From positions 1 to 20,041 of the forward strand of contig CAMOGT010000015.1 in assembly GCA_946614295.1 (NCBI GenBank): a DNA stretch of 20,041 nt. The letters are read 5' to 3'. Shown one piece after another: positions 282 through 20,000 of this stretch. Position 1 is the stretch's first letter. The number at the start of each line of letters is the position of its first letter. The translations under genes and the position numbers were made by a program. The notes under the pieces were generated by a model. It had not been told where the DNA came from, made no database searches, and was given only the letters and a program-made list of their open reading frames with translations. The DNA is from an uncultured Bacteroidales bacterium (GTDB lineage Bacteria; Bacteroidota; Bacteroidia; Bacteroidales; Paludibacteraceae).

Positions 282-1898
282 ATGCTAAGGCATTTACACA
301 TACAGAACTACGCGCTGATAAGCCATCTGGACATTGATTTCGGTCCGGGTTTCTCGGTGCTTACCGGTGAAACGGGTGCGGGTAAGAGTATTATCCTCGG
401 CGCTCTGGGGCTGGTTTTAGGCGCAAGGGCAGACAGCAAAGCTATCACCGACGGCGAGGACAAATGTATCATAGAGGCGGAGTTTAGCCAGATTACGGAT
501 GACGAATTACGAATTACGAATGATATAATCATCCGGCGTGAGTTGTACGCCAACGGGAAGAGCCGTTCGTTCGTGGACGACAGCGTAGTGAGTCTGCAGG
601 AGTTGAAGAGCCTGGCGACGAAGCTGATTGATATCCACAGCCAGCACGCCAATCTCCTGATTGAGAACGCGGATTTCCAGTTGGAGATCGTAGATGCCGT
701 AGCGCATAACAGTGTGCAGTTAGAGGCTTATCAGACTATCTACCAACGCTATACTGCGGCTGTGGAAGAGTGGCAGCGGTTGCAAGCGCTCGCGAAAAAG
801 AGCCAGCAGGACGCGGACTATATCCAATACCGGTTCAAGATGCTGGACGAGGCGGAGCTGCGTGAAGGCGAGATGGAGGAGCTGGACGAAGAGCAGTACC
901 GGCTGAGCCATGCGGAGGAGATCAAGCACGCTCTGATGCTTGCATCGCTTGCTCTGAACGGCGGTCCGGAAGGCGGCGGCGCAATAGAGGCTATCCGTTC
1001 GTGCCGCTTAGAAGATGCGGCGCCGGAGTTACAGGAACGATTAGAGAGCGCACGGATCGAGTTGAAGGACATCGCAGAGGAAGCGGAGAGGAAGATGTCC
1101 AGCGTAGAGATGGATCCGCAGCGGTTAATGTGGGTAGAAGAGCGTATCGGGAAGTTAGAGGAACTGAAGCATAAGTTCAACGCCGGGAGCGTGGAGGAAC
1201 TGATCCGGATGCGCGACGAGTTAGGCGAACAAGTGAGCCGGATGGACAGTTTCGATTTCGACATCGAGCAGGCAAAGAAAACTGTCGAAAAGGAGAAAGA
1301 GTTGTTGGGTAAAGCCGGCGAGGCGCTAAGTAAGAGCCGCAAAGCGGTGATTCCCGGGATCTGTGAGAAACTGGCAAACGATCTGACACGCTTAGGTGTC
1401 GCGCACGCAAAAATAGAAATAGCAATAACACCGACTGCGGATTTCACGGAACACGGTTGCGACGAGGTACAGCTGCTCTTTGCAGCCAACCTCAACCAGA
1501 GTCTGCGCGCCGTAAGCGAGGTAGCGTCCGGCGGTGAGATAAGCCGGTTGATGCTCTGCGTGAAGGCTCTCATCGCCAGCACAAAGGGTCTGCCTACTAT
1601 TATCTTCGACGAGATAGACACCGGCGTCAGCGGCAGTATTGCCACGCAGATGGCTGGTATCATGAAAGAGATGGCGAAGCACCGGCAAATCATCGCTATT
1701 ACCCATCTGCCGCAGATAGCAGCACAGGGCGAGAGCCATTACAAGGTCTATAAAGCCGACACGGACAAACGCACGGAGACCCATATCAACCGTCTGAACG
1801 AAGAAGAAAGAGTAAAAGAGATCGCCACGATGCTGAGCGGAAACCCAATTACCAATGCCGCACTCCAAACGGCACAAGAGTTATTATGTTACCATTAG
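282..1898 (+). CDS. recN: DNA repair protein RecN
   Basis: RecN is an SMC-like cytoplasmic ATPase that binds DNA ends and supports RecA-dependent double-strand-break repair. The 538-residue protein is slightly shorter than the usual 550-560. The N-terminal ATPase half has Walker A GETGAGKS at 29-36; the middle (about 140-370) is charged and heptad-rich, fitting the coiled-coil arms; the C-terminal half has the ABC signature ASGGE at 415-419, Walker B IIFDE with D443/E444, and the ITHLPQIA switch. The ATG at 282 gives the canonical N-terminus (LRHLHIQNYALI) and follows the promoter at 227-257. The stop overlaps the rarA start by 13 bp. Oddity: about residues 70-82 are built from heptamer repeats (491-525), just before the conserved IIIRREL strand, where the family is variable. 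The reading frame is intact and all ATPase motifs are present. Confidence 0.97.
   Translation: MLRHLHIQNYALISHLDIDFGPGFSVLTGETGAGKSIILGALGLVLGARADSKAITDGEDKCIIEAEFSQITDDELRITNDIIIRRELYANGKSRSFVDDSVVSLQELKSLATKLIDIHSQHANLLIENADFQLEIVDAVAHNSVQLEAYQTIYQRYTAAVEEWQRLQALAKKSQQDADYIQYRFKMLDEAELREGEMEELDEEQYRLSHAEEIKHALMLASLALNGGPEGGGAIEAIRSCRLEDAAPELQERLESARIELKDIAEEAERKMSSVEMDPQRLMWVEERIGKLEELKHKFNAGSVEELIRMRDELGEQVSRMDSFDFDIEQAKKTVEKEKELLGKAGEALSKSRKAVIPGICEKLANDLTRLGVAHAKIEIAITPTADFTEHGCDEVQLLFAANLNQSLRAVSEVASGGEISRLMLCVKALIASTKGLPTIIFDEIDTGVSGSIATQMAGIMKEMAKHRQIIAITHLPQIAAQGESHYKVYKADTDKRTETHINRLNEEERVKEIATMLSGNPITNAALQTAQELLCYH
491..525 (+). repeat. Heptamer array (AATTACG family) inside recN
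   Basis: Five consecutive 7-bp units: GATTACG, GATGACG, AATTACG, AATTACG, AATGATA. They encode ITDDELRITND in the RecN frame. The second and fifth units carry G at the fourth position, so the array also repeats at 21 bp. The gene-sense strand and peptide are the same as in the three arrays inside addA, more than 17 kb away on the other strand. The array replaces a variable segment ahead of the conserved IIIRREL strand. Whether it is an insertion or a replacement cannot be told without a relative lacking it. Confidence 0.85.
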
Positions 1899-3121
1899 CG
1901 GAGAGACTGCGTCCGAAGACGCTAAACGAATACATAGGTCAGAAACACCTGGTGGGGCAAGGAGCCATCCTGAGACAGATGATTGAGAGCGGTAACATCG
2001 CCAGTTTCATCTTGTGGGGTCCTCCGGGCGTGGGCAAGACGACTCTCGCGCGCATCATTGCGCATGAACTACAGCGTCCGTTCTATACGCTGAGCGCAGT
2101 GACGAGCGGCGTGAAGGAAGTGCGCGACGTGATCGACAAAGCCAAGCGGAATGCAAGCCTCAACAGCGGACTCTTTGCGCCGGCTGACAGCCGCAGTCCA
2201 ATCCTGTTCATCGACGAGATCCACCGGTTCAGCAAGAGCCAGCAGGACAGTCTGTTAGGCGCGGTGGAGGAAGGTACCATCACTTTAGTGGGTGCGACGA
2301 CAGAGAACCCGAGTTTCGAGGTCATCACTCCGCTGCTGAGCCGGTGCCAGGTGTATGTGCTCAAGGCCTTGGAGAAAGCGGATTTGCTGGAACTGCTCAA
2401 CCGCGCGCTGACGCAAGACGAATATATCAAGTCGCTCGGGTTGCAGGTCAAAGAGACGGAAGCGCTTCTGCGGTACAGCGGAGGCGATGCACGCAAGTTA
2501 CTGAATATCATTGAGTTAGTAAGCAACAGCGGTGTGAAAGTCATTGATAACGAGACCGTCACCAAGCAGTTGCAGCAGAACCCCGTGGCGTACGACAAAG
2601 ACGGCGAGATGCATTATGACATCATCTCCGCCTTCATCAAATCGGTACGCGGGAGTGATCCGCAGGCGGCTATTTACTGGCTGGCGCGGATGATAGAAGG
2701 CGGCGAAGATCCCAAGTTTATTGCACGGCGGTTGGTTATATTAGCGAGCGAAGACATCGGTTTGGCAAACCCGAACGCCCTGCTGTTAGCTAACGCCTGT
2801 TTCGACACGGTGAACAAGATCGGATGGCCGGAAGGGCGTATTCCGTTGGCAGAAACGACCATCTATTTAGCGACCTGCAAGAAAGACAACTCCGCCATCA
2901 TGGCTATCGACGGCGCACTCGCAAAGGTGCGAGAGACAGGCAATCTGCCTGTTCCGCTGCACTTGAGGAACGCACCAACGAGTCTGATGAAGGAATTAGG
3001 CTATGCCGACGGATATCTGTATCCGCATGATTTCCCCGGGCACTGGGTAGCGCAACAATATCTGCCGGACGAGTTGACGGGAACAGTCTTTTGGGAAGTG
3101 AAGAACCAAAAGGAGAAGTAA
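1886..3121 (+). CDS. rarA: Replication-associated recombination protein RarA (MgsA), AAA+ ATPase
   Basis: RarA is a clamp-loader-like AAA+ ATPase that acts at stalled replication forks and gaps with RecA, SSB and the replisome. The 411-residue protein starts with the family N-terminus PLAERLRPKTLNEYIGQ. Walker A GPPGVGKTT lies at 45-53 and Walker B ILFIDEIH has D110/E111. The sensor-like GATTENPSFEV and the arginine-finger region LLSRC follow, and the C-terminal tetramerisation region contains YWLARMIEGGEDP and LASEDIGLANP. It is near the usual 420-450 residues. The ATG lies inside the last codons of recN (13-bp overlap), so translation is probably coupled. The TAA stop is in the same frame as hemW, only one codon before the hemW GTG. 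Identification is secure. Confidence 0.97.
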   Translation: MLPLAERLRPKTLNEYIGQKHLVGQGAILRQMIESGNIASFILWGPPGVGKTTLARIIAHELQRPFYTLSAVTSGVKEVRDVIDKAKRNASLNSGLFAPADSRSPILFIDEIHRFSKSQQDSLLGAVEEGTITLVGATTENPSFEVITPLLSRCQVYVLKALEKADLLELLNRALTQDEYIKSLGLQVKETEALLRYSGGDARKLLNIIELVSNSGVKVIDNETVTKQLQQNPVAYDKDGEMHYDIISAFIKSVRGSDPQAAIYWLARMIEGGEDPKFIARRLVILASEDIGLANPNALLLANACFDTVNKIGWPEGRIPLAETTIYLATCKKDNSAIMAIDGALAKVRETGNLPVPLHLRNAPTSLMKELGYADGYLYPHDFPGHWVAQQYLPDELTGTVFWEVKNQKEK

Positions 3122-3124
3122 CGC

Positions 3125-4210
3125 GTGGCTGGGCTATACGTACATATACCTTTCTGCAAGCGGCGATGCCTGTATTGCGATTTCTACTCCACCACCCTAT
3201 TGGCGCGGCGCGAGGAGTACGTGAGAGCCGTAGTGAAAGAGATCGAACAACGGCAGCACGAGGCAGGAGAACCGATACGAACGGTGTATATCGGCGGCGG
3301 TACGCCAAGCACGCTGGAGATTGAGTTGGTAACAGCACTTACTAAGGCAATAGATAGCACAAACATAGCAGAATATACCGTTGAAATCAATCCGGGCGAT
3401 GTGACAGAAGAGTATCTGATGGGCTTGAAAGCGTTGGGTGTGAACAGGCTGTCGATGGGTGTGCAGTCGTTTCAGGACGAGTTGCTGCAGAAAATAGGCA
3501 GAAGGCATACCGCCGCGGAAGCGATTGAGGCAGTGCGGACGGCACAAAAAGCAGGGTTTGAGAACCTCTCCATTGATCTGATGTATGCCCTGCCGGGACA
3601 GACGATGGCGCAATGGAAAGCCGATATAGAGACAGCAATAGGATTAGGCGTACAGCATCTGTCGTCGTACGGGCTGATGTACGAAGAAGGTACGGCAATG
3701 ACGCAGATGCGCGACCGAGGCGAGCTACAGGAGACGGACGAGGAGACGGAGAACGCCATGTACGACTACCTGTGCGAAAGGGTCAAAGAAGCAGGGTTCC
3801 GGCATTACGAGGTCAGTAATTTCGCGCTGCAGGGATATGAAGCCCAACATAACAGCAGTTACTGGAACGGTACTCCTTACGTGGGCGTGGGTGCCGGTGC
3901 GCACAGCTATACAGGGAATGTGCGGAGTTGGAATCCCAATGATCTGGAGGGGTATATACAAGGGATAGAGAAAGGCACCTTAGTACGCGAGAGCGAGACG
4001 CTGAGTGAAGCGGATTTGTATAACGAGCAGGTCATGTTGGGGCTGCGTACAGATAAGGGATGTTGGCTTTCACCGTCGGTCGACCGTCGGGAGACCGTCG
4101 GGAAACTAAGGCAAAAAGGCTTAGTCAGAGTGGAAGAAGACGGGAGAGTCATTGCGACCCAGGAAGGCCTGCATGTGCTCAACAGAATAATAGAAGAATT
4201 GATGATATGA
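3125..4210 (+). CDS. hemW: Radical SAM family haem chaperone HemW
   Basis: HemW is a radical-SAM protein once annotated as oxygen-independent coproporphyrinogen III oxidase; characterised members bind haem and deliver it to respiratory enzymes. The protein has 361 residues, a little short for the family (about 375-380). It opens with AGLYVHIPFC; C11, C15 and C18 form the CxxxCxxC 4Fe-4S site, followed by YIGGGTPSTL, EINPGD, RLSMGVQSF, DLMYALPGQT and VGVGAGAHSY. The lack of the longer HemN N-terminus and the CxxxCxxC followed by DFY argue for HemW rather than a true HemN. A GTG start is the only option: an in-frame stop (that of rarA) lies 6 nt upstream. The 3' end overlaps PBP1A by ATGA. The C-terminal segment at 4072-4104 carries an 11-bp tandem repeat. 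Confidence 0.93.
   Translation: MAGLYVHIPFCKRRCLYCDFYSTTLLARREEYVRAVVKEIEQRQHEAGEPIRTVYIGGGTPSTLEIELVTALTKAIDSTNIAEYTVEINPGDVTEEYLMGLKALGVNRLSMGVQSFQDELLQKIGRRHTAAEAIEAVRTAQKAGFENLSIDLMYALPGQTMAQWKADIETAIGLGVQHLSSYGLMYEEGTAMTQMRDRGELQETDEETENAMYDYLCERVKEAGFRHYEVSNFALQGYEAQHNSSYWNGTPYVGVGAGAHSYTGNVRSWNPNDLEGYIQGIEKGTLVRESETLSEADLYNEQVMLGLRTDKGCWLSPSVDRRETVGKLRQKGLVRVEEDGRVIATQEGLHVLNRIIEELMI
4072..4104 (+). repeat. Three 11-bp tandem repeats near the hemW 3' end
   Basis: ACCGTCGGTCG (4072-4082), ACCGTCGGGAG (4083-4093) and ACCGTCGGGAA (4094-4104) lie head to tail. They encode about SVDRRETVGK in the variable C-terminal region of HemW. Each unit can also be read as a 7-bp core [C/G]ACCGTC plus a 4-nt spacer, which hints at a link with the 7-bp arrays of this window. 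Since 33 bp is 11 codons, the frame is undisturbed. Confidence 0.7.
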
Positions 4211-6477
4211 AAATGAAGAGTTGGTACAAACCTTTTTTATTGTGGTTCTGGGGATTGTTCTTCGGAGGCATATTAGTCGTATGGTTCGTAATGTGGCTGA
4301 TCATCCGCGGGGTGTTAGGCTATATGCCGCCGTTGGAGGAGTTGCAGAACCCGAAAAACACGTTCGCGAGTGAGATCATCTCGTCGGACATGCAGTCGTT
4401 AGGACGTTACTACCGGTACGAGAACCGTATCGGCGTGGAGTACACCGACCTTTCGCCTAACCTCATCAATGCCCTGATAGCCACAGAGGATGTGCGGTTC
4501 TACGAACACACGGGTGTGGATTTCAAATCCATGTTCCGCGCGATACTCAAGTTAGGCCGTGCGGGCGGCGGTTCGACCATTACCCAGCAGTTGGCGAAAC
4601 AGTTGTGGTCACCGCGTGCGAACAACAAGTTAGAGCGCGCGATGCAGAAACCGATCGAGTGGATCATTGCCACGAAGTTAGAGCGGTTGTACAGCAAGGA
4701 CGAGATTTTGCTGATGTACCTCAACCAGTTCGACTTTCTGTATAATGCCGTTGGCGTACAATCGGCGTCACAGGTGTATTTCTCCACCACTCCGGCTGAG
4801 TTGAAGTTGGAGCAAGCGGCGATGTTAGTGGGCATGTGCAAAAACCCGTCTCTTTATAACCCCGTCCGTCACCCTGAGCGCGCAACCGGCCGACGCAACA
4901 CGGTACTCGGGCAGATGGAGAAATACGGTTACATAGACGAAGCTACGCGTGACTCGGTAGCTGCAATCCCTCTGGAGTTGCACTACAGTTCAGTGGATCA
5001 CAAACAGGGTATTGCGCCGTATTTCCGGGAGTACCTGCGCGGTGTGCTGACCGCCAAAGAGCCTAAAGAGAGCGATTACTCGGAGTGGAACAAACAGCAG
5101 TACCAACTGGATGCCTGGCAATGGGAGAACAACCCGTTGTACGGTTTTTGCGAGAAGAACAAGAAACCCGACGGCAGCCGTTATGACCTGTACCAGGACG
5201 GTCTGAAGATCTATACGACGATTGATTCGCGCATGCAGCGTTACGCGGAAGAGGCAGTGAACGAGCATATGCAGGCACAGCAGAAATCGTTCTTCAAGGA
5301 ACTCAAGCGTAAGAAGAACGCTCCCTTCTCGCGCCAGTTGACGCAGGAAGAAGTGGACGGCATCATGAACCGCTCGATGCGTCAGACCGACCGCTACCGG
5401 ATGATGAAGCGCGCGGGCGTAAGTCATGACTCGATCATGAGGTCATTCAAAGAGCCTCGGGAGATGCAGATATTCACGTACGACCGCGGGATGATCGACA
5501 CGACGATGAGCCCGTACGACTCCATCAAATGGCAGAAGAGCTATCTGCGTTGCGGTTTCATGTCGATGGATCCGCACACGGGTCATGTGAAGGCGTATGT
5601 GGGCGGTCCCAATTTCGCACATTTCCAGTACGACATGGCCACCAAAGGCCGCCGTCAGGTAGGTTCGACCGTCAAGCCGTACCTCTATACGCTGGCGATG
5701 GACGAAGGCATGTGGCCCTGCGAGAAATGGGTGTATGACTCGGTTGTCTTCGTACTGCCGGACGGAAAGAAATGGGTACCGCGCGACACGCATGAAAAGT
5801 ATCAGGGCGACACCGTGAGTCTGACCTGGGGTCTGAAAGAGTCGTCCAACTGGATGGCAGCGTATCTGATGTCGCTGTTCACACCTGAGCAGTTGGTGAA
5901 AATGATGCAATCGTTCGGCATCCAGGGTCAGTTAGACCCGGTGGTATCGCTGTGTCTGGGTCCGTGCGAAGTGAGCGTGGAAGAGATGGTGGACGCCTAT
6001 ACGGCTTTCGCGAACAAAGGTATCCGCACCGAGCCGCTGTACGTGACGCGTATAGAGGACGCCAACGGCAATGTAATCGGTATGTTCACGCCTCGGACGC
6101 ATGAGATCATCAGCGAGACAACCGCCTACAAGATGATTTACATGCTGCGCGCGGTAATCGATCATGGTACCGGTGTGCGTACCCGTTACCGGTACGGTAT
6201 CAAAGCCCCGATGGGCGGCAAGACAGGAACAACGAACAACAACTCCGACGGCTGGTTCATGTGCTTCACGCCATCTCTGGTCAGCGGCACATGGGTCGGC
6301 GGTGAAGACCGTGGCATACATTTTGATAACATGGCTGAAGGACAGGGTGCGTCCATGGCACTGCCTATCTGCGCGCTGTACATGCAGAAAGTGCTGGCAG
6401 ACCCGGATTTAGGGTACAGCGAGGACGAGCAGTTTGACGTACCGGCATGGTTTGACCCGAATGAAGGATGTAAGTAA
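4207..6477 (+). CDS. mrcA: Class A penicillin-binding protein 1A (transglycosylase/transpeptidase)
   Basis: Bifunctional peptidoglycan synthase: the GT51 domain polymerises lipid II and the transpeptidase domain cross-links peptides in the periplasm. From the ATG at 4207 (ATGA overlap with hemW) it is 756 residues; an upstream in-frame GTG at 4060 would lie inside hemW and add a non-conserved tail. A short basic start precedes one membrane anchor (about 10-38, Trp/Phe-rich). GT51 shows TEDVRFYEHTGVD with catalytic E94 and GGSTITQQLAKQ. The transpeptidase has S487 in STVKP, SSN at 546-548 and KTGT at 672-675, so it should be active. The linker at about 290-450 is long and charged, as is usual in Bacteroidota. 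It starts the envelope part of the operon, followed by four exported proteins. The 3' end overlaps the TPR gene by 17 bp. Confidence 0.95.
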   Translation: MKMKSWYKPFLLWFWGLFFGGILVVWFVMWLIIRGVLGYMPPLEELQNPKNTFASEIISSDMQSLGRYYRYENRIGVEYTDLSPNLINALIATEDVRFYEHTGVDFKSMFRAILKLGRAGGGSTITQQLAKQLWSPRANNKLERAMQKPIEWIIATKLERLYSKDEILLMYLNQFDFLYNAVGVQSASQVYFSTTPAELKLEQAAMLVGMCKNPSLYNPVRHPERATGRRNTVLGQMEKYGYIDEATRDSVAAIPLELHYSSVDHKQGIAPYFREYLRGVLTAKEPKESDYSEWNKQQYQLDAWQWENNPLYGFCEKNKKPDGSRYDLYQDGLKIYTTIDSRMQRYAEEAVNEHMQAQQKSFFKELKRKKNAPFSRQLTQEEVDGIMNRSMRQTDRYRMMKRAGVSHDSIMRSFKEPREMQIFTYDRGMIDTTMSPYDSIKWQKSYLRCGFMSMDPHTGHVKAYVGGPNFAHFQYDMATKGRRQVGSTVKPYLYTLAMDEGMWPCEKWVYDSVVFVLPDGKKWVPRDTHEKYQGDTVSLTWGLKESSNWMAAYLMSLFTPEQLVKMMQSFGIQGQLDPVVSLCLGPCEVSVEEMVDAYTAFANKGIRTEPLYVTRIEDANGNVIGMFTPRTHEIISETTAYKMIYMLRAVIDHGTGVRTRYRYGIKAPMGGKTGTTNNNSDGWFMCFTPSLVSGTWVGGEDRGIHFDNMAEGQGASMALPICALYMQKVLADPDLGYSEDEQFDVPAWFDPNEGCK

Positions 6478-8425
6478 AATATTAGTCCTTTGTCTTATGT
6501 CTTTGAGTGCAGCCGTTTTTACTCCTGCGCAGGCTCAGCTGAATACCGACCGCATTACCGCAATCGGGAGAAATGCGCTGTATTTCGAAGACTATGTGCT
6601 CTCTATCCAGTATTTCAACCAAGTCATCCACCTCAAGCCATATCTGCCGGAGCCGTATTTCTACCGCTCGATAGCGAAGATTCAGTTGGAGGACTATCAG
6701 GGAGCGCTCAATGATTGCAATGCCGCCATCGAGCGCAACCCATTCTCACCGGGGTATTACTATGCGCGCGGGTACATCTACCGCCAGTTAGGGCGAAACG
6801 AAGACGCCGAAGCGGACTACACGCAGGCGTTGCGTTTTGCGCCGGAGAACCGCACCTATATGTTACTGCGCGCGGACACACGCGCTTCATTGAAGCGTTA
6901 CGACGAGGCGCTGGAGGACATAGAGCAGATGCTCAAACGCGAGCCGCAGTCCGCCTCCGTGTGGTCGGAGAAAGGGCATGTTTGTATTCTCAAAAAAGAT
7001 ACAATGAGTGCGCTGGAAGCCTTTGAGCAGGCGTCCAGATACGATAAGACGAACCCGGCAGTATGGTCGGCGTTGGGCGTGACGAACCTCATGCTGGAAC
7101 GCGAAGACGAAGCCTATGTACAACTGACACAAGCCATCAACTTAGGTTCCAAATGGGCAGGCGACTATATCAACCGCGGTATTATCCATTACCACCGGCA
7201 TAATTTCCGCGGGGCGTTGGCGGACTACGACCAAGCTGTGAAGATAGCTCCCAAAGATGCCGATTGTTACTATAACCGCGGCGTAATGCGACAGGAGGTA
7301 GGCGACTACAACCGGGCGTTGGAGGATTTTAACACCGCTATCTCCCTGGAGCCGGAACGCACGGAGATGCGTTACCAGCGAGGACTCGTAGAGATGCAAC
7401 TCAAGCAGTGGAGCGCCGTAGTGAAAGACATGAACGCACTCATTGCACAGTACCCGTATTTTCTGCCGGCTTACTACATGGCGGCACAGGCGAAGACGCA
7501 CCAAGGCGATACCAAAGAGGCGTACCGATACCGTAAAGAGGCGTACGACCTGGAGCAACGCAAAGACGAGATACAAGCCAAGCAAGCGGCACAGCCTAAT
7601 ACAGACATACTGATTGCTGACGCCCAGCCGCAGAAGAAAGACCACCGTAAGGAATTCTCCACCTCGGCGGCGCAGAACCAGCCGGAGGTACCGGACGAGG
7701 AACAGAAATACGACTCGCAGACCCGCGGAACGGTACAGAAGAAATACCAGGACGTCGTGAACGAGCCAAATATCGTGCTGTCCTATTACACGCACGACCA
7801 GAGCCTCAAGAGCACGAACTACTACCACCCCACTGTGGATGCCATCAACAAGAGTGAGATGCTACCGGCAGCACTCAGGTTCACCAGCCAGGAACTGACC
7901 CTGACCGCCGAGATGGTGGATTACCATTTCAGCCAGATTAACCGCCTGACAGCCATCATGAACGAGGCTCCGACGGCACAACTGTATTTCGCGCGCGCCA
8001 TGGAGTTCGCTATTATCAAGGACTATGCGAGCGCGATTGACGATTGCACGAAAGCGATTGTCATTGCGGATAAAGAGTTAGAAGCCGTACTGTGCTTCTG
8101 CCGCGCCAACTGGCGGTACAGATTAGAGGAAGTGGATTACGAACTGATGCACCGCGACTATGATCAGGTGCTCCGTCTGCAACCGGATTTCTCCTTTGCG
8201 CTTTACAACAAAGCGAATATCCTCTGCGCACAACGCGAATACAAGGATGCCATCAACTATTATACAAAGGCTATCGCCATCGACCGCGATTTCGCGGAGG
8301 CGTATTTTAACAGAGGTCTGACCTATATCTATACCGGCGAGAACGAGAAAGGTCTGGCGGATCTGAGCAAAGCCGGTGAGTTAGGTATCTATCAGGCTTA
8401 TAACTTAATCACACGGTTCAAGTAA
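6461..8425 (+). CDS. Exported tetratricopeptide-repeat (TPR) protein
   Basis: Starting at the ATG at 6461, the 654-residue protein begins with a signal peptide (KILVLCLMSLSAAVF, cleavage near AQA^Q at about 25-26), so it should be periplasmic or outer-membrane associated. An earlier in-frame start at 6434 would hide this signal inside a longer tail. About nine TPR units follow at about 30-370; clear examples are YNRGVMRQEVGDYNRALEDF and YARGYIYRQLGRNEDAEADY. A charged, Gln-rich linker at about 375-430 leads to a region without repeats, then three or four more TPRs (about 510-650), ending LITRFK. TPRs are protein-binding scaffolds; the partner is unknown. Translational overlap with PBP1A suggests a role with peptidoglycan synthesis, but that is inference. 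No enzymatic motif is visible. Confidence 0.88.
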   Translation: MKDVSKILVLCLMSLSAAVFTPAQAQLNTDRITAIGRNALYFEDYVLSIQYFNQVIHLKPYLPEPYFYRSIAKIQLEDYQGALNDCNAAIERNPFSPGYYYARGYIYRQLGRNEDAEADYTQALRFAPENRTYMLLRADTRASLKRYDEALEDIEQMLKREPQSASVWSEKGHVCILKKDTMSALEAFEQASRYDKTNPAVWSALGVTNLMLEREDEAYVQLTQAINLGSKWAGDYINRGIIHYHRHNFRGALADYDQAVKIAPKDADCYYNRGVMRQEVGDYNRALEDFNTAISLEPERTEMRYQRGLVEMQLKQWSAVVKDMNALIAQYPYFLPAYYMAAQAKTHQGDTKEAYRYRKEAYDLEQRKDEIQAKQAAQPNTDILIADAQPQKKDHRKEFSTSAAQNQPEVPDEEQKYDSQTRGTVQKKYQDVVNEPNIVLSYYTHDQSLKSTNYYHPTVDAINKSEMLPAALRFTSQELTLTAEMVDYHFSQINRLTAIMNEAPTAQLYFARAMEFAIIKDYASAIDDCTKAIVIADKELEAVLCFCRANWRYRLEEVDYELMHRDYDQVLRLQPDFSFALYNKANILCAQREYKDAINYYTKAIAIDRDFAEAYFNRGLTYIYTGENEKGLADLSKAGELGIYQAYNLITRFK

Positions 8426-8475
8426 AGTGAAAGATGATGAAAGATGAAAAATGAAAGATGAAGAATGAAAAGTGA
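8424..8475 (+). repeat. Heptamer array (AARRTGA family) between the TPR and TraB-like genes
   Basis: Seven 7-bp units with one 3-nt interruption (TGA at 8438-8440): AAAGTGA, AAGATGA, AAGATGA, AAAATGA, AAGATGA, AGAATGA, AAAGTGA. The array begins at the stop codon of the TPR gene and runs into the first codons of the next gene, supplying its ATG (8465) and encoding M-K-S. The tandem contains TGA in every forward frame, so it could not sit inside a plus-strand gene. It fills the only spacer longer than 7 nt in the rightward operon. Confidence 0.8.
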
Positions 8476-9361: not shown

Positions 9362-9367
9362 AAACAA

Positions 9368-9931
9368 ATGAAAAAGGTATTTTCTGTATTCGCAGCGCTG
9401 GTAATGGCGCTGAGCATGAGTGTTAACGCTGCAGAGCGCGGCAAGTTTATCCACGTGGACATGACTACGGCGAAAAATATCAAGCCGCAGATTGCTTTCT
9501 GTCAGGAGCATAAGGACGGCACGGATGTCACCACTCTGATCGTCAAGACTGTTAACACGAATGAATTTTATGATTTTAACGATGCTTCGCGTGTGCTGAT
9601 CCGTTTTGCGGACGGAAAAGCTGTGCGCCTTAATCGCGTGCCGGGAAGCGAAGTAAAAAAGAACAAAGTAACGGAGAAAGTAGCGCGCGCCACAGTAACC
9701 AAATACTGGACAGAGACAACCTATGAGGTAACACCGGAGGTGATTGAGAGACTGGAAGCCGGCGTAGCTATCATCAAACTGCGTATTGTCTTCAAAGAGA
9801 ATGATGCCAAGGACTATGAGATCGCTGAGGGTTATCAAGCCAAGATGGCCGAGGACCTGCTGAAGTCTTATCAGGAAGCCGCTCTGAAGAACAAGAAAGC
9901 GAACACCGATATTAGCGATGAGGATTTCTAA
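9368..9931 (+). CDS. Exported protein of unknown function, 187 residues
   Basis: I do not recognise a family. The ATG at 9368 follows an A-rich leader (AAAACAA), typical of Bacteroidota translation starts. A clear signal peptide (MKKVFSVFAALVMALSMSVNA, cleavage near A22) precedes a 165-residue mature domain of alternating short strands and loops: KFIHVDM, TTLIVKTVN, RVLIRFADGKAVRL, YEVTPEVIERL and VAIIKLRIVF. The end is helical and Lys-rich, closing with an acidic tail (NTDISDEDF). This looks like a small beta-sandwich in the periplasm. It has no lipobox and the mature part has a single Cys. The 14-bp overlap with the amidase-like gene suggests coupled expression and a shared process. A real gene is well supported by the signal peptide and the intact frame. 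Confidence 0.8.
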   Translation: MKKVFSVFAALVMALSMSVNAAERGKFIHVDMTTAKNIKPQIAFCQEHKDGTDVTTLIVKTVNTNEFYDFNDASRVLIRFADGKAVRLNRVPGSEVKKNKVTEKVARATVTKYWTETTYEVTPEVIERLEAGVAIIKLRIVFKENDAKDYEIAEGYQAKMAEDLLKSYQEAALKNKKANTDISDEDF

Positions 9932-12137: not shown

Positions 12138-13444
12138 AGATAGCTTTTACCACATTAGGATGCAAACTCAATTTTGCAGAGTCCAGCGCCTTGGGTAAGG
12201 CGCTCTTGGAGCGTGGCCACACGCGCGCCAAGCAAGGCGAGGAGGCGGATATATGCGTCATCAACACCTGTTCCGTCACGGACGCCGCGGACCATAAGGA
12301 CCGCCAGATGATCCATCGCATCCGCCGCAATAACCCGAAGGCTATTCTCATCGTCACGGGCTGCTATGCGCAACTCAAGCCCGAAGAGATAGCACACATA
12401 GAGGGAGTGGATTATGTCCTTGGTCAGAACGAGAAATTCAACCTCCCGGCTTTCATCGATAAACTGGAGGCTAATCAGCAATCAGCAATCAGCAATCAGC
12501 AATCAGCAATCCATCTCTCCCCCATCCGCGAGATCGATGATTTCTACGGGGCATACAGCAAGGACGACCGCACGCGGTGCTTCCTCAAGGTACAGGACGG
12601 CTGCAACTATTTCTGCTCCTATTGCACCATTCCTCTGGCGCGCGGCAAGAGCCGCAACCCGTCCATCGAATCGCTGGTAAAAGAAGCCCGAGAGGCACTT
12701 TCCGGCGGAGCAAAGGAGATTATTCTGAGCGGTGTAAACATCGGTGATTTCGGGCGGTCCACCAACGAGCACTTCATCGACCTGCTCCGCGCGCTGGATG
12801 GTATTGAGGGCGATTTTAGGATCCGTATATCCAGTTGCGAACCCAACCTGCTGAGCGACGAAATTATTGATTTTGTAGCTGCCAGCCGCCATTTTGCGCC
12901 GCATTTCCATATACCTCTCCAGAGCGGTAGTAACACCGTTCTCAAGATCATGGGACGGCGATATACACGCGAACTGTTTGCCGAACGCGTGGCGCATATC
13001 AAGTCTCTCATGCCGCACGCCTTCATCGGCGTGGATTGTATGGTGGGAGTTCGCGGCGAGACGGAAGAGTGCTGGGCGGAGTACGTTGATTTTATCAGCT
13101 CGCTGGATGTGAGCCAGCTGCACGTCTTCACCTATTCGGAGCGCGCGAACACAAGGATGTTGGAGATGGATCTGATCGTTGTGCCGCAACGCGAGCGGGA
13201 GCGCCGCAGCAAACAGCTCCACGCCATCTCGGCAGCGAAGACAGAAGCGTTCTACCGCGCCCACGAGGGCTACGAAGCTACCGTTCTATGGGAGGCAAAG
13301 AAAGCCGACGGACTCATGTACGGATTTACGGAGAACTACATCAAAGTATCCTGTCCGTACAACAAGGCTAAAGTGAACACATTTGAGCGCATAACCGTGC
13401 CGCGTCCGGATTCGGCAGACATTCCAACCGGTACACCGGCGTAG
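12134..13444 (+). CDS. mtaB: tRNA t6A37 methylthiotransferase MtaB
   Basis: MtaB adds a methylthio group to N6-threonylcarbamoyladenosine at position 37 of ANN-decoding tRNAs. Start at the ATG at 12134, which overlaps the upstream stop as ATGA; a start at 12113 would only add seven unconserved residues. The 436-residue protein has the UPF0004 cluster cysteines C10 (TLGCKLN), C46 (NTCSVT) and C77 (VTGCYAQ), then the radical-SAM site DGCNYFCSYC with C157, C161 and C164, ISSCEPN, FHIPLQSGS and GVDCMVG, and a C-terminal TRAM-like strand region. The linker between the first two domains (about 114-126, NQQSAISNQQSAI) is made of heptamer repeats. The C-terminus overlaps the convergent P-loop gene by 77 bp, and its last residues (PRPDSADIPTGTPA) look unlike family ends. 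Confidence 0.95.
   Translation: MKIAFTTLGCKLNFAESSALGKALLERGHTRAKQGEEADICVINTCSVTDAADHKDRQMIHRIRRNNPKAILIVTGCYAQLKPEEIAHIEGVDYVLGQNEKFNLPAFIDKLEANQQSAISNQQSAIHLSPIREIDDFYGAYSKDDRTRCFLKVQDGCNYFCSYCTIPLARGKSRNPSIESLVKEAREALSGGAKEIILSGVNIGDFGRSTNEHFIDLLRALDGIEGDFRIRISSCEPNLLSDEIIDFVAASRHFAPHFHIPLQSGSNTVLKIMGRRYTRELFAERVAHIKSLMPHAFIGVDCMVGVRGETEECWAEYVDFISSLDVSQLHVFTYSERANTRMLEMDLIVVPQRERERRSKQLHAISAAKTEAFYRAHEGYEATVLWEAKKADGLMYGFTENYIKVSCPYNKAKVNTFERITVPRPDSADIPTGTPA
12473..12511 (+). repeat. Heptamer array (AATCAGC x5) inside mtaB
   Basis: Five perfect copies of AATCAGC (12473-12507) followed by AATC. The array encodes NQQSAISNQQSAI between the UPF0004 and radical-SAM domains of MtaB. It is the most uniform array in the window, which suggests it is recent or still changing in copy number. 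The forward strand has no stop in any frame; the reverse strand would contain TGA. The unit differs by one base from the AGTCAGC unit in addB. Confidence 0.92.
13368..13444. other. 77-bp tail-to-tail overlap of mtaB and the P-loop gene
   Basis: The plus-strand mtaB frame ends at 13444 and the minus-strand P-loop frame ends at 13368, so both C-termini (about 25 codons each) are encoded by the same DNA. No inverted repeat with a T-tract lies at the junction, so neither operon has a recognisable intrinsic terminator here. Transcripts would be complementary at their 3' ends, or termination is factor-dependent. Confidence 0.8.
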
Positions 13445-14243
13445 TCTCCAACAGCTGCGCAATCGTCTCGTAGAGCCGATCCATCATATCCGGGCGAATC
13501 TTCAGCCCGCTCACGGAGGCTAAGATATACGGGTACGCCTGTGACATTCTCAGTTTGGATATCTCATTATGCGGCGCTTGGGCTAACTGCACGAGCGCCG
13601 CTACCGGTGCGCTTTCGTTCTTGTAGCACGGCGTCTTTCCCGACCACGGCGTGCCATAGACCGTTACCTGCCCTGCCCCGTCGATACGCACCGCAGGGTT
13701 GTCGTCGTTGAGCAGCGTGGCATCCTCAAACGCCGCTTTCCACTGCTGCGAGTGGGTGCTCTTCCCGGTACCCGAATGCCCGAGGAACATATACCCTTTT
13801 CCGCCGCGTACCGTCACGGACGAATGGAAAAGAAGGGTCTTTTTATCCGCCGTAGCAAAAGCGAATGTAAGCATCGCGGCATTGTCTATCGCAAACCGCG
13901 CACTCTCGTCCCGCAGGTACAGTCGGACTTCCCGCCAATCCCCGCTGCAGACCATTGCACTGACGATCTCGCCTTCACGGCTCATTGACACCGCAAAGAA
14001 CCATTCACCCTCGCGGTGGTACATCTCTATGCGCGGCATATCGGCGTCCGAGCTATCGGTATAGAGGTGCTCCCACCCTTCCGTAGAAGGGATTGCTTCT
14101 TCGCTCGCGCGGATGATGAAGAGCGGTGTTGGAGCACTCGGTTCTATCCTGAAAGGAGCGTAGTTGGACAGCCTTTGGAGATATTTCTCTTCGGCCTCGA
14201 TGCCGAACACATGTCCGGCGACTTGGTAGTATTGTTTCGTCAT
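13368..14243 (-). CDS. HPr-kinase-like P-loop protein (HprK/PEPCK-type fold)
   Basis: The 291-residue cytoplasmic protein has an N-terminal half of strands without known motifs and a C-terminal P-loop domain. Walker A is GHSGTGKST at 155-163 (K161), followed by TLLNDDNPAVRI, with a possible metal-binding DD, and YGTPWSGKTPCY, as in HPr-kinase C-terminal and PEPCK-like proteins. Bacteroidota carry many such stand-alone proteins, often listed as HPr kinase or phosphoenolpyruvate carboxykinase-like, without the HprK N-terminal domain. The substrate is unknown; no HPr or PTS gene is in the window, so true HPr phosphorylation is not supported. The gene starts 5 nt after the addB stop and is probably co-transcribed with addAB. 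It overlaps mtaB by 77 bp at the 3' end. Confidence 0.78.
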   Translation of the reverse strand: MTKQYYQVAGHVFGIEAEEKYLQRLSNYAPFRIEPSAPTPLFIIRASEEAIPSTEGWEHLYTDSSDADMPRIEMYHREGEWFFAVSMSREGEIVSAMVCSGDWREVRLYLRDESARFAIDNAAMLTFAFATADKKTLLFHSSVTVRGGKGYMFLGHSGTGKSTHSQQWKAAFEDATLLNDDNPAVRIDGAGQVTVYGTPWSGKTPCYKNESAPVAALVQLAQAPHNEISKLRMSQAYPYILASVSGLKIRPDMMDRLYETIAQLLETTPVYRLECLPNPDAARLCAQMCSL

Positions 14244-14248
14244 AATCG

Positions 14249-17014
14249 TTAGAATTCTTTTACTTTACGTCCGCAGAGGGTGAAGAACGGACAGAACGAC
14301 GGACACTTGCTCTCCTCGCACTGCGGGTACTCGGTGGCGGTCATCACCTCCTTGAGTTTTTGCTGTAGTGCCTCGTAGAACTCACTCGCTACCGCGCGGT
14401 AGTCGTGCACCGTATCATTCTCTACATCTATGGTTGTCACTATTCCTGTCAGTTTGCGACGGCAGAAGAACAGGTTCGGTTCTATCGGCAGCCCCGTCTT
14501 GTCGGCTCTCATCACCGCGTGGCTGTAGATCATCGTCTGGCGCATGTAGCCCTTGTCCTCGCCCGCCATCAGTTCATCCCAGCCGGCGGACATCTTCTGC
14601 GTGTGCGTCAGGTCGTTGTAACCGCCGGATTTGTAATCCACCACGCGGAGCGTCTCGTTCCCTTCCTCGCCGTATATATCCAGACGGTCGATTGTACCGC
14701 CAGTCTGCACTTCGCCCACGCCTTCAACCTCCACGGGGAAGTACCGTGGCTGCTCCAGGAGATAGATTTGCAGACCTTTTCTTGCATCCTCGCGGTCGCG
14801 TTCCAGGATATTCCGCACGTAGCCTTTAATAATCACGTTTTCCGCCACGTGCCGCTCCGGCAGGTAATGATCCTCCGTCTCCTCCGGATAGTCCTCGCGC
14901 CACTCGTCGTTCATCGCCTGGTACGCCGCCATGAGCGCCTCTTGCATCTTCTCTTCGTCGGTACGGACTGCCTCAATCGCTTCGGGCGTAACCTTCACCG
15001 GAGCGGTGTTGTCGCAGTGCATGAAACGGGTGTAGATATACTCCATCGCGTGATGTACGAACGATCCCATCGTGTTGCTCTCGAACGGTCCGTCCTCTTT
15101 CTTCTCCGGTCGTTTCAGCCCCTCTATATATTGGTGGTAGAACGACCTCGGGCAGGATATATACGTATTCAACGCACTGGGCGAGAGGCGCAGCCTGCCC
15201 ATCGAAGCGAGCGACTCTTTGCGGGGTTCGACAGGTGTGAAAGCCTGCACCGCGTTCGGCTCTTGCAGCACGCCGCGCGTCACCTCGAACTCGTCCGAAT
15301 AGAGGATCTGCATGATGAACCGCGACATGCCTCTGCTCCCGCCTATCGTGTCCGGCTGACCGTATAGCAGCGTCGTGTGACCCGAGCGGCTCAGCAGCCG
15401 GAAGAAGTTGTAGGCATAGACCGTAGCACGCTCGTCCGGGGTCTGCATGTGGTAGGTCTTGCGCAGGTAGAAAGGTATAAAACTGATATCCGCCTGACGT
15501 TGCGGCAGGATTCCCTCGTCCACGTTCAATAGCAGTAGCCTGTCAAAATCCAGCAGTCGTGTCTCCAGCACTCCCATTACCTGCATATCCGTCACCGGCT
15601 CGCCGTGGAAAGGCATGGAGACCGCCTCCATCGCCCTGCGCATCAGCATCCTCAGCAGTTTGAGTGTGAACGGTACATTCCCTAAACCGGTAGCGAGAAC
15701 GAGCCGCATCTGGTTGATGATTTTATGCACCTGGTATTCGGACTCTAACACCAATAACTCACGCCATGTGAGGTCTTGGCTGTCCTCCGCGGGCTGCTCT
15801 GCTGCCGTCTCTTCAAACACCGCCTTCACCAACTCCTCCATGATCCCGGGCCCGACGACCTCTTCGGCTTTGCCGCGTGCCTTGTCGTACAGCCACGCCA
15901 CCACGCGGGCATAGACTGCCGTATTACGGAGCGGAAAACCCTTGGTGATATTCACCGGTTCGGGTGTTTCCTGTCCCTTTAAGGTGATCGCCGGCAGGGC
16001 GTAAATCACAGGCTCTAACATCGTCTCGTCGCAGATTACGACACCCACTTTCTGTCCCTTCGCCGTGTAGTTCTCCTCCAGCCATCGGTGTACGTACTGC
16101 GCCTGCGCCTCTTTGGACGCACAACTCACCACCGCCACCCGCATCTTGCCGTTCCGCGTCTCGTGCTTTCCGCTATCGCCTAAGATGCCGCTGTTCAGTC
16201 GGGCGAACGAGAACGCTTTGGTGTTGGTCTCAAAATCCGGCACGTAGTCCCAATAGAACTGTGCCTGCCCTTGGTCACGGAGCCGCATCATCAACTCGCG
16301 CTCTACCGGCAGCAGGTAGTTAAAGCCCACGAAGATATACGTTCTTCCCTTTATTTTCTCCTGTGTCTCCTCGTCCTCCCAGTGCTCGATCACGGCTCTC
16401 TGCCTGAGTCCCGGATAACCTTTTTGCTCCGCCTCCATCTCTGCGCGCAGACCCTTGTACAGCACATACAACTGCCGCCAGAGCACCTCGTATCGGGCTC
16501 TCACGGAGTCTTCGCTGTACGTAGCCTGGTCCTCGCGAAAGAGCGCTTTGAGCCGGGACTCGATCTCTTCGTCCAGTTTCCACTGCTCCAATTCATGTGC
16601 GGCGATAGTATTGTCAAAGAAATTCGGCACTTCGGCTGCAGGCATGGACGCGTCCACGTTCGTAAAATCGGTCACCATCTGCCTGCCCCAGCCGTAGAAG
16701 AGATCAAGCGGCATCGGCTCCTCTGACGGCCGACTGCTGACTGCTGACTGCCTATAAAGTTTGTACAACCGCAGCACGGTGAACAGTTCGTCCTCCGGAT
16801 ACAGCGGCGAGAGCTCGTCCTGCAACTGCGTGAGGGTCTGAACCCGCGGCGCCCAGACGGCTTGCGCGTGTTGTTCCTGTTGCAGCCGCAGCAACTCGTC
16901 CTTCAGCACTAACCCTGCACGGTGAGACGGCAGCACAAGCGTCGTGTGCTGTAACTGTTGCCAATCGATACTCTCCAAGATCGATTCCGCCGTTGTTCTC
17001 AAGAAACTATCCAT
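14249..17014 (-). CDS. addB: AddB-like PD-(D/E)XK nuclease subunit
   Basis: Probable second subunit of the AddAB helicase-nuclease that resects double-strand breaks. Of 921 residues, the N-terminal part (TLVLPSHRAGLVLK) is the degenerate helicase region of Bacteroidota AddB-like proteins, with no Walker A. A late helicase-like segment (DRLLLLNVDEGILPQ) precedes the C-terminal nuclease: LSPSALNTYISCPRSFYHQ with C621, a GTIDRLDIY strand and the catalytic D793-Y-K795. The last cysteines are C899, C904, C908 and C914. With C621 they probably hold a 4Fe-4S cluster, but the spacing C-x3-C-x5-C differs from the usual C-x2-C-x5-C. The start overlaps the addA stop by 8 bp. A heptamer array lies at about residues 88-97. 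Length is shorter than Firmicutes AddB (about 1150), as in other Bacteroidota. Confidence 0.87.
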   Translation of the reverse strand: MDSFLRTTAESILESIDWQQLQHTTLVLPSHRAGLVLKDELLRLQQEQHAQAVWAPRVQTLTQLQDELSPLYPEDELFTVLRLYKLYRQSAVSSRPSEEPMPLDLFYGWGRQMVTDFTNVDASMPAAEVPNFFDNTIAAHELEQWKLDEEIESRLKALFREDQATYSEDSVRARYEVLWRQLYVLYKGLRAEMEAEQKGYPGLRQRAVIEHWEDEETQEKIKGRTYIFVGFNYLLPVERELMMRLRDQGQAQFYWDYVPDFETNTKAFSFARLNSGILGDSGKHETRNGKMRVAVVSCASKEAQAQYVHRWLEENYTAKGQKVGVVICDETMLEPVIYALPAITLKGQETPEPVNITKGFPLRNTAVYARVVAWLYDKARGKAEEVVGPGIMEELVKAVFEETAAEQPAEDSQDLTWRELLVLESEYQVHKIINQMRLVLATGLGNVPFTLKLLRMLMRRAMEAVSMPFHGEPVTDMQVMGVLETRLLDFDRLLLLNVDEGILPQRQADISFIPFYLRKTYHMQTPDERATVYAYNFFRLLSRSGHTTLLYGQPDTIGGSRGMSRFIMQILYSDEFEVTRGVLQEPNAVQAFTPVEPRKESLASMGRLRLSPSALNTYISCPRSFYHQYIEGLKRPEKKEDGPFESNTMGSFVHHAMEYIYTRFMHCDNTAPVKVTPEAIEAVRTDEEKMQEALMAAYQAMNDEWREDYPEETEDHYLPERHVAENVIIKGYVRNILERDREDARKGLQIYLLEQPRYFPVEVEGVGEVQTGGTIDRLDIYGEEGNETLRVVDYKSGGYNDLTHTQKMSAGWDELMAGEDKGYMRQTMIYSHAVMRADKTGLPIEPNLFFCRRKLTGIVTTIDVENDTVHDYRAVASEFYEALQQKLKEVMTATEYPQCEESKCPSFCPFFTLCGRKVKEF
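16724..16751 (-). repeat. Heptamer array (GCAGTCA family) inside addB
   Basis: On the coding strand four 7-bp units follow each other: GCAGTCA, GCAGTCA, GCAGTCG, GCCGTCA. They encode QSAVSSRPS, between the helix ending LYKLYR and the conserved LDLFYGWG. Rotated, the unit is AGTCAGC, one transition away from the AATCAGC unit in mtaB. The coding strand is stop-free; the other strand contains TGA. The array is partly decayed. Confidence 0.8.
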
Positions 17015-20000
17015 GTACTTCTCTTAATTCGTTTTTACGGGCGAACCACAGATAGCCGCGCACAGGGCTATGCCCCATCCGCCGCAGCGCCTCCATGTAT
17101 TCGCGCACCTGGGTCAGGTAATGGTCGTCCCATCCGCCGAACTTGTAATCCAGCACGACGGCCTCGTTCGTCTCGGGATTGATCATCACACGGTCGGGAC
17201 GCAACTCGCGGTGGTCCGTGTATATTGCCTCCTCGAGCCGCAATTCCCAGGGTTTGGTAAACCAGTCCCGCATCTTCGGACTGCCTTCCCACGCCGAGGA
17301 AATCAGATTTCTCAGTTCCTCTCTTTTCTCCTGGGAACTGATCTCTCCGCGGGTCTCGAAATCGTCCAGCACAGCCTCTAACTCATCGGCTTTGCGGATA
17401 TGCGCGAAAATCTCGTGGCAGAGCGTGCCTTCGTCCATCCGCGCCACGCGCCGGTACGCCTCGTCGCCGTAGTCCGTGTATAGCGCACCTTCCTGCGATT
17501 GCACAAACCGCACGTGGTCACTGTTCGCCCACAACTCTGCCATCAATTCGTCATTCGTAATTTTTAATTCGTAATTTTTAATTTTCACTTTCCCTGCCTC
17601 GTATCCTTCCTCTCCGGCGAAATCCAGCAGATACTTGCCCACATGGTTGCACGCGCCGCGTTTGCCGTCTTTCGTCACCGAATAGGAGGTGTTTACAAAC
17701 AGGTTGTCCTCGGCTCTCGTCAGTGCTACGTAGAGCATGTTCAGGTTGTCGATCCGCAGGTTCGTCTGTTCCTCCGTATACTCCGCTGCGTAGTCGGAGT
17801 CCGCCATCTCGGCTCCGTAGAGCACCGGCACGTAGTCACCCCGCTCGTCAATCCGCCTGGACACCTCGCACCACACTTTGGGTTTATGCCTTCCGTCCTC
17901 TTTCTCCCAGTGGCAGAAAGGCACGAAGAGCGTCTGCGTCTGCAGACCCTTGCTCGCATGAACGGTCATGATTTGGATGGCGTTCGCAGCGGTCACAGGA
18001 ATCGGTTTGGCGTGCATCGTGTCGTCCCAGTAAACGAGAAAATCCTCAATCGAACTCCCGTACGCACCCACGTACTCGCGCGTGCGGTCTAATAAGGAGT
18101 TGAGGTACGCCGTCTCGGTGCCTTTATACTGTCCGTTCTCGTCCGTCAGCAGCACGCGCACCAGCTCGCTCACCGCCTCATACAGCGGCGTCTTGGCGTT
18201 GATTTTTAATTCGTCATTCGTAATTTTTAATTCGTCATTATTCACCATCCTCCCTGCTACTTCATCGCCGTGCACCAGGTATCGCAGCGCCGCGATGATG
18301 AGTTGCACGTCTGCCGAGGCGTCGAGTTGGAAACTGTCTGCCGACACTACCGCCGTCTTCGTCAGCAGCGGGAACTGCGCCTCGTCCAACTCGGCTTTCA
18401 TGTCGGTGATGGCGACTGCCTCTGACCGGAACCGCACCAGTACCATCATATCCTCCGCCCGCACGCCTTTCTGCAGCAACGCCTCCATCTGTTCGAACAT
18501 ATCCGCCGCCAACTCGTCGTCCTTCGCGTTCGGGAACGCCTTGAACCGCACATAACCGCCCCGCTTCTTGTCCGCCTGATAGAAATGCTCCAGATTCTCC
18601 GGTTTGTATCCCTCGCCGTATATCCGTTCCGCCAATTTTCCTAATTCGTCATTCGTAATTCGTAATTCGTCATTCGTAATATAGTCAAACAGCGCCAGAT
18701 TGAATTTCACCACCTCTTCGCTGCTTCGGAAATTCCGCGTCAGTGAGGTGAACCGCTCATTGATGCTCCCTTTGCCTCTAACCTTTCTACTTTCGTCCTT
18801 TAATTCTTCCATGATATGCCAGTCGCCGTTGCGCCAGCGGTAGATGGACTGTTTGATGTCCCCCACAATCAGCAGCGTGTTGCCCGAGCCGGCGAGTACG
18901 TCGCGCAGCAACTGTTCTATTACGCTCCACTGAAGCCGGCTCGTGTCCTGAAACTCATCGATCAGCACGTGCTTGTAGCGGATGCCTGCTTTCTCCAGAA
19001 TAAAATCCGCGTCTCCTGTCTTCAGCGCTTTGCTCAGCGTGCTTGCCGTACGGGCTAACAGCGCACTGTTCGCTTCCGCCAAATCACGCAGGATAATAGC
19101 CTGCAGCGAAGCCATCAGCTCTTGGTCCCTGCTGAACTTGACTGTTAGGAAGAGCGTGTTGTACGTCTTTGCCAGCTCCTCGGCAATCGCCGTTGCCTGC
19201 GCCATCTCCTCCGTGCTGCAGAACTTGCCCGTCACCCCGCGGAAACGGTCCTTGGCGGACACTTTCTCCGGCTTCTCCACGGACCTGCTCAGCCGCTCGT
19301 ACGCCGCTTTGGAATAGCGGTTATAGCCCTCATACTGCATCTTGCATGTATCCAAGACCGCCTTCAACTCCTTCACCCGCTCGTCGTTCTCCCACTTCTG
19401 CTCCACCTGCTCACGGCGGCGTTGGATCGCCTTGGCGTCAAAGAGGATCTTTCCCTCCGCGTCTAACATCTGCACCGACTCGTTGTACAGCTCTTTGACC
19501 ATCGCCACCAGACTGCCGCGTACATCCCATTGGCTCTCCTGATCCAGTTTGAGCAGCATGTAATCCTCCAATATCTCCTTGTCCGCCGCCGTCATCTCGG
19601 TGCTCAGTAACTCATCCACAGCCGTCCTTATCACATGATCGACATCCAGCTCCGTACTCTGCCCTGCCCCGACGCGCAGCACGCCCGCCAGACCCGAGAG
19701 CAGACTCTGCAGAAACGAGTCTATCGTCTGCACCTGCACATTGTCATAGTCTAACAGCATTTTCCGGAAACACTCGCCGGCGCGTGCACGCAGCAAGCTC
19801 TCCGGCGCACCCGCGTCGCGGACCATGAACGAACGTGTGTACTCCAGGAACGCGCTCTCGCCGCCTTCCGCTATGCCGTGCAGGTAACCGATGATACGCT
19901 CGCTCATCTCCGCCGTCGCCTTGTTCGTAAAAGTGATAGCGAGAATCGAGCGGTAGTCCTCGCCCGACAACAGCAACCCCACGTAATACGCCGCCAGCGT

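Follow-up and report, generated by a model that had tools for sequence, protein, structure and literature searches.

Heptanucleotide tandem repeats are gained, lost and replaced in place in genes and spacers of gut Paludibacteraceae

Bacterial microsatellites are usually thought to vary in the number of their units and not in the identity of the unit. Several heptanucleotide systems have been described, including TAACTGA direct repeats in Beggiatoaceae, cyanobacteria and five Bacteroidetes, Paludibacter among them (MacGregor 2015, PMC4679880), GGGNATC-type heptamers in Xanthomonas and Nostoc (Rehm 2015, PMC4692102), and a four-heptamer element of Geobacter metallireducens, with 49 copies both between and within genes (PMC2700814). 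In the P6b stem-loop of the Nostoc trnL intron, one heptamer class has been repeatedly replaced by another, and the authors prefer replacement of the whole region to many small mutations (Kaasalainen 2015, PMC4476775). In Rickettsia, small repeats known as palindromic elements have become in-frame parts of conserved protein genes (reviewed in Delihas 2007, PMC2229807). Here, we analyse the 7-bp tandem arrays in a 20,041-nucleotide stretch of DNA from an uncultured Bacteroidales bacterium of the Paludibacteraceae (contig CAMOGT010000015.1), hereafter called the window. These arrays are heptanucleotide tandem repeats of the short tandemly repeated repetitive sequence (STRR) or long-simple-sequence-repeat kind, very abundant and with fast turnover in a clade of gut Paludibacteraceae. 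Genome-wide statements refer to relatives, namely 80 loci containing mtaB plus stretches of related genomes, and not to the window's own genome.

Between conserved flanks, arrays appear and disappear, change their number of units and give way at the same site to arrays of other units. From 510 site comparisons, a flank identity of at least 84% (138 comparisons) and the removal of reciprocal pairs left 102, of which 62 were genic, 13 intergenic and 27 at gene edges. With flanks at least 90% identical (61 comparisons), the partner carried the same or a similar unit in 32 cases, a different unit in 12 (one of them weak) and no array in 17. The same-site replacements were found between relatives whose flanks are 90–99% identical.

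The arrays of the window illustrate these changes. Its nearest counterpart among the 80 loci is L061 (‘Paludibacteraceae bacterium isolate Sheep_1_mag_28’), with an MtaB 97% identical and DNA 91% identical over window positions 2187–20041. The recN array (491–525, plus strand, units AATTACG/GATGACG, peptide ITDDELRITND) represents a gain of 33 nt, since 19 of the 21 aligned relatives have a short form, including the sister genome G001, which served as the reference genome; the other two, L193 and L196, exceed this form by 30 nt and carry different heptamer-like inserts at the site. The addB array (16723–16751, minus strand, AGTCAGC, peptide RQSAVSSRPS) is absent from L061, where the window is 9 nt longer. 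At the second addA array (18201–18242, minus strand, AATGACG/AATTAAA/AATTACG, peptide NNDELKITNDELKIN), L061 holds AATTGTA/AATTGTG, as read on the window strand, at equal length between near-identical flanks. The first addA array (17545–17586, minus strand, AATTAAA/AATTACG/AATGACG, peptide KIKNYELKITND) is equal in length and partly different in content in L061, while the third (18638–18684, minus strand, AATGACG/AATTACG, peptide ITNDELRITNDELGKL) is identical there and, by eye, absent from the other 30 aligned relatives, whose sequence at this place varies in length. Finally, the single intergenic array (8424–8476, plus strand, AAAGATG/AAAAATG), which extends into the start codon of the next open reading frame (8465), is 17 nt shorter in L061. 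The empty sites sought by the original prediction were thus found by alignment in other species for arrays in conserved genes.

These cases bear on plain replication slippage, under which 7-nt slips, to which the polymerase would be prone, expand a local seed on the spot, and a site with different units would have lost one array and independently given birth to another. Whole-unit changes do occur (14 nt between L002 and L004; 7 nt between L038 and L041 and between L062 and L063), as slippage would give. However, the two dated gains, in recN and addB, are not multiples of 7, the unit of addA 18201–18242 changed at constant length, and the recN array uses a unit common in the sister genome, although the empty site contains, by eye, only a partial seed, GATGA. 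Candidate donors exist in the sister genome: 14-mers of the recN array have 117 word matches in its 399-kb sample, in which recN itself carries no array.

The mtaB array (12473–12511, plus strand, AATCAGC × 5.6, peptide NQQSAISNQQSAI) occupies a hypervariable linker, whose sequence differs from species to species and in several cases is a heptamer array. In the alignment with MiaB it falls at six gapped residues, and solved relatives of both MtaB and RecN exist. A second mtaB site, around 330 nt downstream of the linker, has heptamers of differing units in several relatives (L010 10676, L011 1947, L021 10669, L022 10677, L024 10674, L025 10672, L033 10677 and others) and no heptamers in the window. 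Several genic arrays lie at sites that are variable in relatives too, and from this alignment variability the MtaB and AddA arrays are predicted to lie in surface loops. A conserved amino acid segment encoded by unrelated DNA was considered and rejected: at the MtaB, AddA and AddB sites the sequence differs between relatives, and mostly the length does too. As a separate observation, the mtaB linker of L008 and L051, as well as addA of L051, have a palindromic CCCCCTAAAGGGGG repeat and a stretch coding for GRVGVGL where other species have heptamers.

The same sites raise the alternative of independent insertion, in which pre-formed heptamer pieces would enter permissive sites and later be deleted, a swap being two unrelated events. 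The insertion into an empty site in recN fits this account, as do the MtaB linker, AddA, AddB and RecN sites, which hold differing units and other dispersed repeats across species. It does not readily explain swaps that are exact in length between near-identical flanks, nor at least one swap located beyond called genes or at their margin (L033 16881 vs L022 16911), where no protein loop would focus the events, and we regard it as unlikely.

A scan of two further relatives, G003 and G022, over 84.7 kb of 95.3% identity revealed 35 divergent islands, 13 of them with heptamers (6 on both sides), although arrays make up just 583 bases, or 0.7% of the sequence. Half of the arrays (8 of 16) overlap a divergent island. 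The six islands labelled genic differ in length by 18, −6, 39, 3, 18 and 33 nt, each divisible by 3, and the seven labelled non-genic by 3 (the mtaB linker, which is really coding), 0, −27, 33, 5, 30 and −3 nt. Assembly artefact was rejected as a source of the arrays, the addA array of L005 recurring in L008, by name a record of another project. A further record, L006, is titled Oscillospiraceae and is 98–100% identical to Paludibacteraceae L005 around the compared arrays; it is probably a mis-binned contig.

Within the window, all seven arrays listed by the original prediction are present, six of them genic. Tandem Repeats Finder returns period-7 rows at 492–521, 8437–8476, 12473–12511, 16723–16751, 17545–17576, 18207–18239 and 18638–18680, and a lag-7 scan with a score of at least 13 retains five of them (491–521, 8436–8476, 12473–12511, 16725–16751 and 18644–18677); the arrays at 17545 and 18201 are of mixed units and fall under the cut-off, with 17553–17583 being detected at lag 14. 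Seven is the main strong period among periods 2–15, for which 100 first-order Markov shuffles of the window gave no array at the cut-off. The only other independent array in this range has period 11 and lies at the 3´ end of hemW (4072–4103, unit ACCGTCGGGAG × 2.9). Period 11 is also the second commonest in the 80 relative loci (1.41 Mb), whose 304 arrays comprise 173 of period 7, 50 of period 11, 24 of period 8 and 20 of period 9.

Where MtaB is at least 77% identical (35 sequences, window included), arrays number 187 per Mb; the two more distant MtaB bins have 80 and 72 per Mb, so density decreases with distance. Five sampled genomes contain 140–198 heptamer arrays per Mb (G001, 56 in 399 kb; G002, 79 in 400 kb; G012, 77 in 400 kb; G003, 39 in 240 kb; G022, 21 in 142 kb), representing 48–72% of all arrays of periods 1–15, and one third-order Markov copy of each sample gave no period-7 array. 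The 7-nt tandem units are thus present beyond chance, and dispersed copies are many in the relatives. The genome-wide system predicted originally, with several unit families per genome, is borne out in these relatives. Controls drawn from the family, the order and the phylum, 20 genomes apiece (start of contig 1; 294, 251 and 347 kb, some contigs being short) gave 24, 4 and 23 arrays per Mb, present in 3, 1 and 4 genomes, respectively. Three exact copies of AATTACG were found in 4 of 41 order genomes and 2 of 61 phylum genomes, G001 counted. Period 7 is the commonest in the phylum (8/11) and family (7/21) samples, which favours slippage, and not in the order sample (1/6). Slippage is likewise favoured by a report that, in most genomes, heptamers outnumber every other category of such repeats (Mrazek 2007, as given in the parts of PMC4679880 available to us).

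The unit sets differ among genomes. Favoured units are AATTACG, AAAAATG and AAATCTC in G001; AATTCTC, AATTATC, AAAGGTG and AAAGTCG in G002; AACTATC and AATTATC in G012; and AATCTCC and AACCCGT in G003. In these four genomes, 23–39 distinct consensus units were counted per sample, and scattered sites of one genome share some units more than two genomes do. The probability that two arrays share a consensus unit is 0.035–0.064 within a genome, with neighbouring arrays counted separately, vs 0.003–0.016 between genomes, a ratio of 2 to 21. Chance sharing would be about 1 in 1170 if all bases were equally frequent; because this is an assumption, the value observed between genomes serves as the better control. 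This sharing speaks against slippage, which, the whole-unit changes and the prevalence of period 7 notwithstanding, we consider rather unlikely as the full explanation.

Recurrence of units at scattered sites would also be expected from a dedicated writer, that is, a mobile element or a templating enzyme (a reverse transcriptase or telomerase-like activity) adding heptamers. However, 23–39 units per sample are too many for one template, and RVT_1 was found in only 1 of 19 draft genomes, which makes reverse transcription unlikely, even if a search with this single family model leaves absence uncertain. Three of the seven arrays were tested for inverted repeats of at least 8 nt: none were found around those of recN and addB, and the mtaB array has one overlapping palindrome alongside. 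Arrays of the same unit differ in length and flank, and in families of at least four arrays the flanks are, by eye, mostly unrelated; in G012, several arrays share one flanking repeat. We consider a dedicated writer very improbable. In stretches L151–L170 of G012, a repeat ending in ..AGCCGAGATAAG or starting with GTACGGCTTTAGCCGATCGTTCGAG directly abuts several heptamer arrays.

The distribution relative to genes departs from the original view of a system placed inside conserved genes, neutral to reading frame and set in the open orientation by a coding logic. In 1.2 Mb of three genomes, 74–83% coding by our own simple gene finder, genes contain 51 arrays, intergenic regions 104 and gene edges 57; the arrays are therefore denser outside genes, in agreement with other heptanucleotide repeats. 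These ratios are only rough, because the finder, which is based on codon usage, under-calls genes in the relatives and is inconsistent: the mtaB-linker swap between L010 and L011 is labelled genic from L010, intergenic from L011 and non-genic in the G003/G022 island scan.

As originally stated, ACGAATT, AATCAGC and AGTCAGC have no stop in one direction (TNYELRI, NQQSAIS and SQQSAVS) and TAA or TGA in the other. Two further units in the genic arrays of the window, AATGACG and AATTAAA, meet a stop in one phase of the coding strand, so these arrays are not frame-neutral as a whole. Both units are confined to safe phases: AATGACG (or GATGACG) is in phase 0 in 6 of 6 cases and AATTAAA in 0 of 4, phase 0 of the latter reading TAA.

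Across 134 genic arrays, the consensus unit is open in the sense direction only in 67, both ways in 47, antisense only in 14 and in neither direction in 6, so that it is closed on the coding strand in 20. For these counts and for those of super-periods, seven near-duplicate loci (2, 4, 6, 10, 11, 56 and 61 of the 80) were left out; other related loci were kept, and orthologous arrays are therefore counted more than once. All 134 arrays are open as they stand because they lie within an open frame, closed consensus units persisting because variant units take their place wherever the codon phase would be dangerous. Since openness is forced on any surviving gene, what had been read as coding logic is better seen as the mark of selection on survivors. 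Among the units open both ways, 37 of 47 are read in the more hydrophilic sense (p = 1e-4 if independent), as are 19 of 24 in four genome samples alone, a bias that tolerated exposed stretches would be expected to give.

Length changes show the same filter. No change was seen in 21 of the 62 genic comparisons; the remaining 41 differ by a multiple of 3 in 38 cases and by a multiple of 7 in 6, and the corresponding intergenic counts are 1 and 4 of 10. Unit number varies between relatives, by whole units in some pairs, and a 21-nt super-period, as in-frame slippage would leave, was not seen in genic arrays (50 genic vs 105 others; Mann–Whitney p = 0.48). Genic survivors mostly preserve the frame, are free of stops and are mostly read in the more hydrophilic sense. 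The frame data also bear on selected contingency loci, in which genes would be switched by unit number. Seven is not a multiple of 3, and a change by a single unit would indeed shift the frame; nevertheless, frame is kept in the 38 changes just mentioned, which are differences between species and not within a population, and the genes of the window are housekeeping genes. Phase variation is the least probable of the explanations considered, with hardly any weight in our estimate.

Some gains have lengths not divisible by 7, units change while the length of an array stays constant, and unit sets are shared in part; together, this suggests copying from other arrays. We therefore lean, by a little, towards heptamer repeats with fast turnover in which new arrays are templated on other arrays and then filtered by selection. 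An array might be copied from another array of the same genome by template switching at short homology, or by ectopic conversion, during replication or repair; ordinary 7-nt slippage could change unit number; and selection would purge frameshifting, stop-bearing and hydrophobic copies, leaving an apparent coding logic. No cellular function is shown for the arrays and none is needed. A broader proposal, which we put forward tentatively as possible and hold as the more doubtful of the two, is a genome-wide rewriting in which arrays overwrite each other by templated copying, so that variable stretches of MtaB, AddA, AddB and RecN would be rewritten with in-frame, mostly hydrophilic peptides, perhaps with the help of a dedicated repair or replication factor.

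Several observations weigh against templated copying. The site comparisons are not independent because one site is compared with several partners, and L010/L011 alone provides 10 of the 61; similarly, related loci contribute orthologous arrays to the 47 units open both ways. Swapped sites would also result if heptamers were inserted independently at permissive sites. At the 14-mer level, unit sets are not private: 42 of 56 G001 arrays match their own genome and 34 also match G002, and of 39 G003 arrays, 25 match their own genome, 23 match G022 and 22 match G002. Control matches with reversed words reach 20/56 in G001, 12/79 in G002 (own 62), 6/39 in G003, 46/77 in G012 (own 72) and 6/21 in G022 (own 15). 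For the addB unit, the five genome samples gave no 14-mer match and the whole sister genome gave one, and no donor–recipient pair was traced. Unit order appeared polar in the sequence at hand, with AATTAAA before AATTACG 12 times to 2, and this polarity holds in some genomes only (G001 14:5, G199 43:15, G039 45:46); uneven across 200 family genomes, it was dropped as the mark of a single source array. The donor tests, 14-mer matches and unit-order polarity, are suggestive and not decisive.

The gene context agrees with the earlier assignments of recN, mtaB, addA and addB, which profile scores upheld. The window encodes recN, a RarA-like AAA ATPase, hemW, a PBP1A-like protein, mtaB, addB and addA; RecN scores 432.6 bits (cut-off 407.85) and MtaB 388.7 (cut-off 357.05), while the AddB-like and AddA/RecB-like matches are clear though below their cut-offs. 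An open reading frame of 739 amino acids (9918–12137) has no NCBIfam match. Opposite window position 6481, the sister genome locus L061 carries an 87-nt insert containing near-repeats of GACCGCTCACTGCGTTCGCTGAAAG.

If arrays are converted at such a pace at the same sites of housekeeping genes, array conversion would be a mutational process open to measurement and would supply new protein sequence. The turnover also bears on why unrelated bacteria favour 7 nt, and it calls for caution, as a heptad-like protein linker in such a genome can stem from repeat DNA rather than represent a domain.

The idea that such repeats, with their coding logic, might be undescribed is not supported, since a closely similar forward/reverse frame argument was made by MacGregor (PMC4679880) with Paludibacter among the genomes. 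As described in the available parts of that report, the TAACTGA repeats resemble the present arrays in being open one way and stopped the other, and they are mostly intergenic, with some in open reading frames; in contrast, they consist of one unit, are in the main genome mostly located immediately ahead of start codons, and are not reported there as replaced at the same site by other units in protein genes. The GGGNATC heptamers (PMC4692102) and long simple sequence repeats are, as far as the accessible text goes, similarly dispersed, over-represented outside genes and variable in unit number, but the GGGNATC unit is G-rich and quadruplex-forming, whereas here many units occur, mostly not G-rich. 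The Geobacter metallireducens element (PMC2700814), in the portion seen, is one fixed four-unit element that its authors read as a regulatory RNA element, and the Rickettsia palindromic elements (PMC2229807), in the sections available, are longer and have terminal inverted repeats, which were not found around the recN and addB arrays. A search of titles and abstract openings, with subscription literature mostly outside it, returned no report of same-site heptamer replacement in protein genes. The one precedent found for unit replacement is Nostoc trnL (PMC4476775), which, from the part consulted, differs in being a single RNA locus with two classes sharing a common stem structure, whereas the present replacements involve dozens of units at many protein-coding and intergenic sites. 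Measured against these partly consulted sources, what is new here is the extension of a known kind of heptamer repeat to many units, many sites and protein-coding genes.

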